Source: a virus. Taken from it: DNA of 25,021 bases. The position numbers and the translations under genes were made by a program. Below are positions 5,485 through 8,579 of this stretch, in pieces; the stretch's first letter is position 1, and each line of letters opens with the position of its first letter. The stretch spans positions 1 to 25,021 of the IMG/VR virus record IMGVR_UViG_3300037237_000131; one strand, given 5' to 3'. The notes beneath the pieces were generated by a model, which was not told where the DNA came from, did no database searches, and saw only the letters and a program-made list of their open reading frames with translations.

Positions 5485-5579
5485 TGGCCCGAGTGAAGGT
5501 GTGCGGCGTCTGCTGGAAGCCGGTCGCCGAGTGCATCTGCGACGACGCGCCCGAGCCGGAAGGCGACAGCGAGGACTAG
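5484..5579 (+). CDS. 31-aa Cys microprotein
   Basis: ATG at 5484 with GGAGGG 9 nt upstream, a good ribosome binding site, and overlap with the preceding stop. The peptide has MARVKVCGVCWKPV, then AECICDDAPEPEG: C-x2-C and C-x-C pairs nine residues apart, a minimal zinc-knuckle pattern, with an acidic tail. It lies 18 nt before the large terminase start. Function unknown. Confidence 0.5.
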   Translation: MARVKVCGVCWKPVAECICDDAPEPEGDSED

Positions 5580-5597
5580 CCCCTTCCCGGGAGGCGT

Positions 5598-8579
5598 GTG
5601 GCCGATCCCGACCTCCCCGAAGGCTTTGAGAACTGGCCGCCGGCGATTCAGTCACGGTTCCTCGAAGAGTGGCATGCCCTGTACTTCCCGCGGCTCCGGT
5701 GGTGGGAGAAGCCGGAGAGCGACGAGGAAGACAGCGGGCCCCGCCCGAAACAGCTCCCGCCAGATGACCCGCGCCACTGCCTCCCGGACAACAGGGGCTA
5801 CCGCTGCGGATGCTCGCACGGCATCCCGAACTGCCTGGAGTGCCCGCCATGCCCGGGCAACCCCGCCTGGTCGACCTGGCTTTGTCTTACGGCGCGGGGT
5901 TGCGTTGCCGGGCATACGCGCATCTACCTGCCGCTTGAGGACCGTCACGAGCGGATAGACGTGCTCGCCGCGGCGGGTAAGCCGATTACGGTCCTCGCGC
6001 TGACCGGCGAAGGCCCCCGGCCTGCCGTGACCGGGGGGGCTCCGTTCCTCAAGGGCGTCGCCAGCCTCTACGAGGTCAGGACCGGCGACGGTCAGGTCAT
6101 CACGGTGACTGACCAGCACCGTTTCCTGACGCCGCAAGGATGGCTGCGACTCGCTGACGTGCGCGAAGGACAGCTTCTCGCTTCAGGCGCTCCCGTTCCT
6201 CTGGGGGAAGTTTCACCCCGGTCAGGGTTGCCGCGAGATGGTCGGCGTTCGTCGCGTACAGCTCCAGGTTCCCCGGCTCGTTATCCGACGTATCCCGGTT
6301 CTTGTGATCCACGACTTCCAGCGGGGCCAGGTAGCGGCCGAGCACCTGCTCCATCACGAGACGGTGCTGACGGACATACCCGCCAGCCGTGGCCTGCGGA
6401 TGATCAGGGCATTTCTCCAGGATGTAGCCGTCTTCATCCACGGAGTAGCCGCCCTGCCAGAAGTAGTTCTTCTCCGGCCGGGCCTTGGCCGGCAAGCGTT
6501 CTAGTCCGAGTTCGATCAGGCGCATACGGATCGCCTCTTCCTGGCATCCGAAGGCTTCGCCTATCTCCCGGCACGATAGCCGCCGGGAGTGAAGCTGCCG
6601 AAGCCTTTCTTCGGGGAGGTCGAGACGTTTCGCCGCGGACAGCTTCTGCCGCGTCTGCTCCGTCTTGGCCCTCCCTCGAAGTTGCACTCCGGCAGTACGG
6701 AGACGACGCCCTATCGTCTGGTAGGACATGCCGGCCGCCTCAGCGAGTTCGTAGAGGTTTCCCCCCGCAAGATAGCGGCGGCTCAGTTCGTCAATGGGCA
6801 CCCGGACTAGCTTTTGCCCCTCAGGTCGCATCTCGACCCCGAGCCGCACTAGCAGGCGCCCGACTGTCTGCTGGGAAACTCCCGCCGAGTCTGCTAGCTC
6901 CCGGCAATTCGCACCATTCAGGTAATGGGTGCGGATGTCGTCGCGTTCCTGCTGAGTCCACTTTTTTGTCATATCTGGATTGTATCAAGTGGACGCGGGT
7001 TCTGTCGGTGCGACCTGCGGGGACTGGCGTTTTTTACGACATGCATGTCCCCGGCCCGGAGAATTATGCCGCAGAAGGGTATTACCAGCATAATACGGGC
7101 AAAACGAAAGCCGGTTCTAACTGGACGCTGGAGATGGCCTTGTCCAGGCCCGATATCCACGTCGGCGTCTGCGGTCCCACCTACGACGACGTACGAGCGG
7201 TCTGTCTGGAGGGTGAAAGCGGGCTAATCGCCGAAGCCAAGAAAAATGGCATCGAAATAGTTGATTACAACAAGAATCGTCAAGAAGTCTTGCTGGCCAA
7301 CGGCTCCAAGATCCGGGGCTTCAGCGCCGAGAAACCAGACTCGATCCGAGGTCAGAACCTCTCGTACGTCTGGTTTGATGAGCTAGCGTCAATCAGGTAT
7401 TTCGGGTTTTTCCATGAGGGCCTGATGCCTGCTCTCCGCAAGGGAGAGCGCCCTCGCCTGCTGATCACCACCACGCCGAAGCGCATCCGGCTGATCCGCA
7501 AGCTGATCGAGGACTCCGGGTACGAGCTCACCGGCAAGGACGGCGGCCCCGGAACCGGGGTTCACCTCACCCAGGCGATCAGCGCGGAAAACATTCACTT
7601 CTCCCGGATCGCGCGGGAGCGGCTGGAACGCGAGTACGCCGGCAACCCCGTCATGCTGCAGCAGGAGCTCCAGGGCCTGCTCTTGGCCGACGCCGCCGGC
7701 TCCCTGTTCCCCATCGAGCAGTTCAACGAGACCCGCGTCTACCCGGCGAAGGACACCCTGCCGCAGTGGCGGCGCGTCGTTATCGCGGTCGACCCGGCCA
7801 CCACGAACAAGGACACGTCCGACGAGACCGGGATCGTGGCCGGCGCCGAAGGGGACGACGGGGACTTCTACATCCTTGAGGACTGCTCCGGCCGGTTCAG
7901 CCCGGACCAGCAGATGCGTGTCGTCGCGGAGGCGTACTACCGCAATAACGCGGACTGCGTGGTCGGCGAAGTGAACATGACGGGCGACTACATGCGGGCG
8001 CTGCTGTCCACGGTTGACCCGAACATCCCGCTCCGCACCGTGCACGGCATGAAGGGCAAGGTCAGCCGCGCGCAGGGGCCTTCGTCGCTGTTCGCGCAGG
8101 GCCGCGTGCACATGGTGGGGGATAACTTCCGGCTGCTGGAAGATCAGCTTTCGGCGATGGCCGAGGGTGACGACCGAAACCGGATGAAAGATGACAGAGC
8201 GGACGCTGCGGTCTGGCTGCTCCTGCACCTTTCGGGCAGCGGTCAGGGCAACTGGGCGCAGGTCTACGGCTTCCGCGACTGCGTGAAATGCGGCTCGCGG
8301 GTCAACGAGGACAAGGACACCCGCTGCTCCAACTGCGGCGCCGAGGTCTCCAGGCAGGCCCCGAAGCATGCCGGGGGCCGTCCCGCGCAGATCCCCTGGT
8401 CTGAGGCGTACCTCAAAACCTGCTCAAAGTGCGCGACGAAGTACACGCCGCGCGAGCGGACCTGCCCAGCGTGCAGTCCGAGCCCGGAAACGTACCTGCA
8501 GCGGGCACTTGCGTCATCCCAGCCGGGCGGGAAGCTCGGTTACACCGGAGGCAACTGGCTGGCTGGGAGGCGGTTCTGA
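5598..8579 (+). CDS. terL: Phage terminase large subunit, intein-containing precursor
   Basis: Large packaging ATPase/nuclease: it drives DNA into the prohead and cuts concatemers. The GTG at 5598 follows GGGAGG. The 993-aa precursor becomes about 595 aa after removal of a 398-aa intein (residues 102-499). The exteins join as LTARG|TGKTKAG, a Walker A P-loop, so the unspliced protein has no intact ATPase site. Walker B is VWFDELA (D594, E595), followed by ITTTPK (motif III). The nuclease domain shows VIAVDPATTNKDTSDETG, VGEVNMTGDY and DDRADAAVWLLLH, carrying the acidic metal ligands. Unusual additions are an N-terminal Cys cluster (RCGCSHGIPNCLECPPCPG) and two C-terminal zinc ribbons (CVKCG...CSNCG and CSKC...CPAC). 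The middle of the intein is also coded on the other strand by an HNH endonuclease gene. Confidence 0.93.
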   Translation: MADPDLPEGFENWPPAIQSRFLEEWHALYFPRLRWWEKPESDEEDSGPRPKQLPPDDPRHCLPDNRGYRCGCSHGIPNCLECPPCPGNPAWSTWLCLTARGCVAGHTRIYLPLEDRHERIDVLAAAGKPITVLALTGEGPRPAVTGGAPFLKGVASLYEVRTGDGQVITVTDQHRFLTPQGWLRLADVREGQLLASGAPVPLGEVSPRSGLPRDGRRSSRTAPGSPARYPTYPGSCDPRLPAGPGSGRAPAPSRDGADGHTRQPWPADDQGISPGCSRLHPRSSRPARSSSSPAGPWPASVLVRVRSGAYGSPLPGIRRLRLSPGTIAAGSEAAEAFLRGGRDVSPRTASAASAPSWPSLEVALRQYGDDALSSGRTCRPPQRVRRGFPPQDSGGSVRQWAPGLAFAPQVASRPRAALAGARLSAGKLPPSLLAPGNSHHSGNGCGCRRVPAESTFLSYLDCIKWTRVLSVRPAGTGVFYDMHVPGPENYAAEGYYQHNTGKTKAGSNWTLEMALSRPDIHVGVCGPTYDDVRAVCLEGESGLIAEAKKNGIEIVDYNKNRQEVLLANGSKIRGFSAEKPDSIRGQNLSYVWFDELASIRYFGFFHEGLMPALRKGERPRLLITTTPKRIRLIRKLIEDSGYELTGKDGGPGTGVHLTQAISAENIHFSRIARERLEREYAGNPVMLQQELQGLLLADAAGSLFPIEQFNETRVYPAKDTLPQWRRVVIAVDPATTNKDTSDETGIVAGAEGDDGDFYILEDCSGRFSPDQQMRVVAEAYYRNNADCVVGEVNMTGDYMRALLSTVDPNIPLRTVHGMKGKVSRAQGPSSLFAQGRVHMVGDNFRLLEDQLSAMAEGDDRNRMKDDRADAAVWLLLHLSGSGQGNWAQVYGFRDCVKCGSRVNEDKDTRCSNCGAEVSRQAPKHAGGRPAQIPWSEAYLKTCSKCATKYTPRERTCPACSPSPETYLQRALASSQPGGKLGYTGGNWLAGRRF
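6100..6972 (-). CDS. HNH homing-type endonuclease, antisense within the terL intein
   Basis: A 290-aa protein with ATG at 6972. Three helix-turn-helix-like repeats occupy about residues 13-47 (CRELADSAGVSQQTVGRLL), 62-96 (LYELAEAAGMSYQTIGRRL) and 122-157 (CREIGEAFGCQEEAIRMRL). A classic HNH domain follows: GGYVRQHRLVMEQVLGRY, then EVVDHKNRDTSDNEPGNLEL and TNADHL, with H223, N231/N235 and H245 as likely catalytic residues. These coherent motifs show that this strand is the real coding strand here. The last 30 or so codons overlap block B of the intein, and the start lies just before the intein C-half. A probable promoter (TACAAT ending 6 nt before the ATG) would give a leaderless mRNA. Expected role: cleave intein-less terL alleles to drive homing. 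Linker HTH modules probably bind the target site. Confidence 0.9.
   Translation of the reverse strand: MTKKWTQQERDDIRTHYLNGANCRELADSAGVSQQTVGRLLVRLGVEMRPEGQKLVRVPIDELSRRYLAGGNLYELAEAAGMSYQTIGRRLRTAGVQLRGRAKTEQTRQKLSAAKRLDLPEERLRQLHSRRLSCREIGEAFGCQEEAIRMRLIELGLERLPAKARPEKNYFWQGGYSVDEDGYILEKCPDHPQATAGGYVRQHRLVMEQVLGRYLAPLEVVDHKNRDTSDNEPGNLELYATNADHLAATLTGVKLPPEERERLKREAVLRARQRVAAILAASGNGAGQSP
6979..7008 (-). promoter_or_regulatory. Leaderless promoter for the antisense HNH gene
   Basis: On the minus strand, CCGACA (7008-7003; 4 of 6 matches to TTGACA), an 18-bp spacer and TACAAT (6984-6979; 5 of 6 matches) are followed by CCAGAT and then the ATG at 6972. No Shine-Dalgarno is present. The promoter lies inside the coding sequence of the intein's C-terminal splicing half. 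Confidence 0.5.

Follow-up and report, generated by a model that had tools for sequence, protein, structure and literature searches.

An intein in a viral terminase gene with a putative homing endonuclease gene on its opposite strand

In textbook inteins the homing enzyme is a domain of the same protein. Here we describe an intein in the large terminase gene (terL) of virus record IMGVR_UViG_3300037237_000131 (positions 1 to 25,021; these 25,021 bases are referred to below as the window) in which a gene for an HNH endonuclease lies on the opposite strand, between the two splicing halves. By analogy such an element would work like a homing intein. It shares with the bifunctional inteins, which contain an in-frame LAGLIDADG or HNH domain, the Hint domain, a mobile pattern of presence and absence, and endonuclease information at the customary place of insertion, flanked by blocks B and F; a conserved-site rule for the insertion of endonucleases into inteins has been described (PMC6801210). 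It differs from them in that no endonuclease is encoded in frame with the intein: the enzyme gene is antisense and lies outside the intein polypeptide, with its own start and promoter-like box. Mini-inteins possess the same splicing blocks, but have no endonuclease in or on the insert.

Dassa in 2009 reportedly described fractured genes at 26 loci, in which split inteins have a free-standing endonuclease gene between their halves. Such a gene is also present between the halves of the window intein (HNH open reading frame [ORF] 6972-6100, minus strand), and both arrangements occur mainly in phages. In contrast to fractured genes, the host genes of the antisense-HNH inteins stay one continuous frame, with the exception of locus L097; in the window, terL (5598-8579, plus strand) is a single open frame of 993 codons. 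The split intein of MIJ3 PolB likewise has a free-standing HNH gene between its halves (PMC6892783), but was rejected as a published precedent because this gene is on the same strand as polB. The ShiLan domain, published in 2025, is a hidden out-of-frame HNH in a phage methylase (PMC11855218). ShiLan and the window element have in common an out-of-frame HNH inside a host gene which is kept open and a homing-like distribution, and leaderless expression is suspected for ShiLan. The ShiLan HNH, however, lies on the strand of its host gene and without an intein, whereas that of the window is on the opposite strand and is accompanied by splicing blocks. Some nuclear group I introns carry homing endonuclease genes antisense to the host gene; these differ in being removed at the RNA level, so that the host frame need not stay open. 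No description of an intein with an endonuclease gene on its antisense strand was found in the open-licence PubMed Central literature.

We regard it as highly probable that the window element is a composite mobile intein, with a splicing element on the sense strand and a helix-turn-helix (HTH)-HNH homing endonuclease gene on the antisense strand. It is also likely that inteins with an antisense endonuclease form a general class of mobile element that has not been recognised before, in which at least two unrelated nuclease families independently became opposite-strand genes in intact inteins: HTH-HNH in P-loop nucleoside triphosphatases (NTPases; phase 1) and HTH-MTES_1575/Vsr-like in MuF minor capsid proteins (phase 0), with the HNH promoter located within the splicing domain in at least one clade.

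The terminase intein and its antisense gene

The intein comprises 398 residues, from a Cys (5901) to a terminal His-Asn (7094), and is inserted in the Walker A loop of TerL (...LTARG^TGKTK...), with Thr as the first residue after it. Models were made with AlphaFold2 (AF2) and are quoted with their predicted local distance difference test scores (pLDDT). The locus is composed as follows:

5598-5900, plus: TerL N-extein, ending ...LTARG, the first half of the Walker A loop
5901-6200, plus: N-terminal splicing half of the intein (Cys1, TxxH block B); C1, T70 and H73 invariant in alignment A2, AF2 pLDDT about 97
6100-6972, minus: HTH-HTH-HTH-HNH endonuclease gene, 290 amino acids, ATG start; Pfam HNH_3 and HTH matches, AF2 pLDDT 89
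6103-6200, both: double-coding stretch, intein block B region (plus) and C-terminus of the HNH protein (minus); reduced substitutions at sense positions 1 and 3 in three of four pairs
6207-6947, plus: sense linker joining the two intein halves; rich in Ser/Pro/Arg/Gly and predicted to be disordered
6223-6468, minus: HNH nuclease domain (alignments A1 and A5)
6508-6960, minus: three HTH units of the HNH protein (AF2 secondary structure; Pfam HTH_58/Sigma70_r4/HTH_28)
6978-7094, plus: C-terminal splicing half of the intein (block F, terminal HN); D, VP, H and N invariant in alignment A3, pLDDT 95-98
6979-6984, minus: -10-like box TACAAT, preceded by TG, 6 nt upstream of the HNH ATG and inside the coding sequence of the C-half
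7003-7008, minus: weak -35-like box CCGACA, spacer 18 (sigma70-like match)
7095-8579, plus: TerL C-extein (TGKTK..., Pfam Terminase_6N/6C, C-terminal zinc ribbons)

The splicing residues C1, T70, H73, D380, H397, N398 and Thr+1 are all present, and C1, H73, D380, H397 and N398 are invariant across 32 aligned inteins. The isolated intein segment matched PF14890 (Intein_splicing) at both of its ends (E=1.3e-8; 35.3 bits, slightly below the cut-off of 35.8) and also TIGR01445 (intein_Nterm). In the AF2 model the halves adopt a Hint fold, matching the Mtu RecA and Ssp DnaB mini-inteins with E values of about 1e-7 and a probability of 1.00. By motif and predicted fold the insert is an intein with complete N- and C-terminal splicing blocks. 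A group I or II intron was rejected: there was no Rfam match in the window, and the splicing blocks are in frame. The N-extein matches the intein-free TerL genes L002, L004, L006, L007 and L009, in which it is fused directly to the C-extein. At the other end of TerL, positions 8280-8474 (residues ca. 895-959) gave Zn_Ribbon_1/DZR-like zinc-ribbon matches, which are unusual for a terminase.

The sense linker of approximately 250 residues matched no Pfam family, endonuclease or other, in a Pfam scan of the window, and its pLDDT is below 50 (about 40) over nearly all of residues 103-349. The minus-strand ORF matched PF13392 (HNH_3) above the family cut-off (E=4e-8), as well as several HTH families, and its model (mean pLDDT 89) comprises three HTH-like units of three helices each, followed by the HNH region at the C-terminus. 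Residues H203, H223, N231, N235 and H245 of the HNH domain are invariant or nearly so (alignments A1 and A5); H223, N231, N235 and H245, which constitute the H-N-H catalytic signature, are invariant in 35 HNH sequences. A Foldseek search with the model returned no match at E <0.001, the best being 2lvs (a CRISPR repeat-binding protein; 9e-3), with I-HmuI far lower in the list. The 3' end of the gene (stop codon 6100-6102) extends into intein block B (ca. 6102-6143), while its ATG is 5 bp ahead of the C-terminal splicing block. These anatomical features had been read by the initial annotation from the letters alone, namely both sets of splicing blocks, a linker lacking an endonuclease motif, the 290-residue antisense HNH protein with its three HTH-like units, and its overlap with block B, and they agree with the motif, Pfam and model data.

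The anatomy suggests the following scheme. The terL message would be translated straight through the intein; the two intein halves would fold into a single Hint domain, with the linker as a long disordered loop at the usual position of endonuclease insertion, and splicing would restore the P-loop of TerL. The antisense HTH-HNH endonuclease would be expressed separately from its own promoter, the -10 box of which lies within the coding sequence of the C-half, and presumably cuts the intein-free P-loop site, after which repair would copy the genes of both strands together. Splicing, HNH expression, cleavage and homing are what we infer for the window element. Its anatomy, the conservation of this anatomy, the selection on each strand and the horizontal spread between distant TerL genes are matters of direct comparison. 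Such an element represents another way of keeping a selfish gene inside an essential gene.

Coding on both strands

The C-extein, HNH gene and N-half were used as separate search queries, followed by alignments and wider hidden Markov models (HMMs). This yielded a table of 67 non-identical inteins, each having its two halves and an antisense HNH, and the wider HMMs provided more cases. The intein length is divisible by three in all 67, and in 65 the linker is stop-free in the frame of the host gene, while the means for the remaining two sense frames are 3.7 and 7.9 stops. When HNH codons were shuffled synonymously, 286 sense-linker stops were expected over the 67 inteins versus the 7 seen, six of which belong to L097. 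The proposal of the initial annotation that the sense frame must stay open is in accord with these counts.

It might be argued that only one strand codes: either the sense linker is the conserved one and the antisense ORF is its spurious shadow, or the HNH gene is genuine and the open sense frame shadows it. A G+C content of 63% favours long shadow ORFs, and the probability of the open sense frame for the window alone is 0.014. Against this stand the HNH and HTH family matches and confident predicted fold of the antisense protein, a sense frame which is stop-free at 37-45% GC too, and a switch in the codon position at which substitutions fall, which takes place at the linker. Moreover, most HNH homologs outside inteins contain stops in the equivalent phase. 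We consider single-strand coding extremely unlikely, and a GC-driven shadow ORF was rejected on the basis of the synonymous shuffle, the low-GC loci and the mostly interrupted free-standing homologs.

The substitution patterns reveal what each strand is selected for. In pairs of relatives the substitution peak is at sense position 3 in the intein halves and at the third position of the HNH codons in the linker, where sense position 2 coincides with HNH position 3. In the pair L031/L032, sense positions 1/2/3 of the N-half change at rates of 0.10/0.15/0.55, those of the linker at 0.08/0.42/0.08 and those of the C-half at 0.23/0.12/0.49. The ratio of nonsynonymous to synonymous substitution (dN/dS, NG86) of the HNH gene is 0.07-0.25 in most pairs and 0.37 in one Pectobacterium pair; for the sense linker it is mostly >1 (L031/L032: HNH 0.08, linker 2.89). 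The HNH frame, which lacks stops in nearly all relatives, is under purifying selection, and the selection check put forward by the initial annotation comes out in favour of a genuine gene. The sense linker seems to be selected merely for staying open, consistent with its predicted disorder. Where the N-half overlaps the HNH C-terminus, three of four pairs display less change at sense positions 1 and 3. Here, in a natural setting, double coding extends without stops over a long stretch, with only one strand constrained in its amino acids. The same DNA provides a splicing element when read on one strand and an enzyme gene when read on the opposite one, and the two have been held together over wide evolutionary distances.

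The exceptional locus L097, an intein in an AAA-type ATPase, has six TGA stops in the sense linker but has kept its antisense HNH, and its C-half is preceded by the Shine-Dalgarno-like sequence AAAGAGG and an ATG. It looks like a naturally split derivative, the only clear one, and is as expected if openness is maintained only where translation must traverse the linker; the antisense layout offers a natural route towards split inteins. One could propose that the window intein is itself split, the C-half being translated separately and joined by trans-splicing, with two half genes flanking a free-standing HNH gene; MIJ3 PolB exemplifies the known fractured arrangement. L097 fits this layout with an antisense HNH, and the window has an in-frame TTG shortly ahead of the C-half. 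This TTG, however, has no preceding Shine-Dalgarno sequence, and trans-splicing would require neither the 65 stop-free linkers nor 67 lengths divisible by three. A split intein in the window is accordingly judged very unlikely, and an unbroken terL, translated through its intein, is the reading retained.

Distribution, spread and expression

As revealed by aligning parts of the window to the recovered loci, the order N-half (plus), HNH (minus), C-half (plus) recurs in >75 distinct contigs, so that dozens of unrelated phages share the layout. Among the HNH relatives in viral contigs, approximately 69 of the best 80 sit antisense inside an intein, the remainder being without a detectable intein. 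Searches led by the N-half, which are blind to the HNH gene, recovered relatives that either have the antisense HNH or are mini-inteins (L003, L049, L157 and L162); none of the window-intein relatives in these searches had a sense-strand endonuclease in the linker. Such an endonuclease would, according to the initial annotation, have counted against its interpretation, so that neither this check nor the one on selection refuted it. The only intein recovered with a sense-strand endonuclease-like sequence was L163, a distant match in a ribonucleotide reductase. On plasmids, all seven matches to the HNH protein were weak and partial, and the only one inspected, from a Streptomyces plasmid, is an annotated gene that stands by itself.

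The host genes of the antisense-HNH inteins encode P-loop NTPases (Terminase_6N, Terminase_3, AAA_34, SNF2-type and AAA_24), and insertion is nearly always within the P-loop. Nine sequenced cultured phages are carriers: Pectobacterium phages Ymer, Abuela, Sabo, Koroua, Amona, Taid and Pappous, Dickeya phage Setonix, and Pseudoalteromonas phage PHS3. An assembly or chimera artefact was rejected, the layout being present in independent metagenomes, in the eight cultured Pectobacterium/Dickeya phages and in PHS3. The composite element with an antisense HNH gene, as first proposed, stands; the idea of a one-off insertion into this mini-intein does not, since the layout is a widespread, horizontally spread class and, as a second refinement, another nuclease family has adopted it.

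The arrangement explains some misannotations. In PHS3 (L135, 1652-3778) the annotated TerL begins only downstream of the intein, without the P-loop, since gene calling chose the antisense HNH over the overlapping 708-codon TerL frame; in the Pectobacterium carrier phages TerL is annotated as hypothetical. A bacterial copy is found on a chromosome contig of Polaromonas sp. CG9_12 (L132); its HNH frame has stops near the end while the sense intein frame is open, and it is possibly a decaying endonuclease. More HNH fragment matches occur at the start of this contig.

Among related terL genes, with C-exteins 72-87% identical, are empty sites (in the five intein-free genes listed above), a mini-intein (L003) and the window element; mini-inteins occupy the same site as the window intein in the close relatives L003, L157 and L162. 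Empty sites and a mini-intein are seen even where the TerLs are 82-87% identical. Between the window and L029 the inteins are 77% and the HNH proteins 62% identical, but the TerL exteins just 35%. Judged by these identities, the intein has spread horizontally between distant TerL genes.

The putative promoter of the antisense gene, CCGACA-18-TACAAT, is the only sigma70-like match in window positions 5500-7400, and it lies on the minus strand. Thirteen loci have their HNH start 5 bp ahead of the C-block, and 12 of them show TANNNT at the identical offset. The two codons under the -10 box are always NNT ANN in these 13 loci, the first being the second codon of the C-block; the residue specified by the NNT codon varies (C, C, G, A, T, L, S, D, V, S, D, Y, Y), and 2-35% of the neighbouring codons end in T. 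The conservation of the box is at the nucleotide level. This suggests that in the GC-rich clade the antisense HNH mRNA is probably leaderless; other clades have a TATAAT-like box and a Shine-Dalgarno sequence ahead of the HNH start. If true, a promoter in the splicing domain would allow homing to be timed independently of the host gene, which is expressed late.

Several points weigh against the composite mobile intein as we have described it. The probability of ca. 0.014 for the open sense frame of the window alone means that the case rests on its relatives. The distances of inteins and HNH proteins are weakly correlated (Mantel rho 0.24), and partners may therefore sometimes be swapped. Recent transfer is directly supported in the MuF family but not in the HNH family. 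Lastly, a pooled promoter test over the 67 loci was significant versus the null, but not for the antisense versus the sense strand. It is uninformative between strands because the HMM-anchored edges which it employed missed the true HNH starts; the position-specific comparison given above was used instead, and the promoter claim is strong only for the 13-locus clade with the HNH start 5 bp before the C-block.

A second nuclease family in MuF inteins

At L051 (2923-3807) the intein of a MuF-like protein contains an antisense ORF that matches HTH and MTES_1575/DUF559-like nuclease families. Further MTES_1575/Vsr-like loci (L172-L222) were observed in viral contigs, including Gordonia, Klebsiella and Pseudomonas phages; cultured examples include Gordonia phages Vivi2 and Malisha, Klebsiella phage KpTDp1 and Pseudomonas phage vB_Pae_BR313c. 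The opposite frame is fully open in 32 of 36 viral loci, always in phase 0 versus phase 1 for the HNH family; local codon usage predicts approximately six stops per locus, an illustrative figure as these loci had already been selected as open. Substitutions in the linker favour the third position of the nuclease. This nuclease family is unrelated to the HNH family, and the layout apparently arose twice, by convergence.

Members of the Guernseyvirinae also carry the MuF version, e.g. E. coli phage Snoke (L223), in which the intein is annotated and the antisense gene is unannotated. In Snoke and Salmonella phage CTH7 (L226) the third codon positions differ by 54% and 41% in the two exteins, versus differences at only a few percent of sites in the sampled intein segments. 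Phages K1H (L227) and Bas75 (L228) are intein-free, with an uninterrupted MuF site (HPNCRS). Near-identical inteins in diverged genes beside empty alleles form the pattern expected of recent homing.

This signature also bears on the possibility that the antisense HNH gene, though genuine, serves chiefly as a regulator that binds DNA, or as a weapon against rival phages, and not as a homing enzyme. The protein has three HTH units, and phage HNH enzymes can exclude competitors. The invariant catalytic residues, the tie of the gene to an intein in most of its best relatives, and the transfer signature of the analogous MuF element argue otherwise, and we hold such a role to be very unlikely for the window gene. 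For the homing role which we favour, cultured E. coli phages with (Snoke) and without (K1H, Bas75) the MuF version make homing testable.

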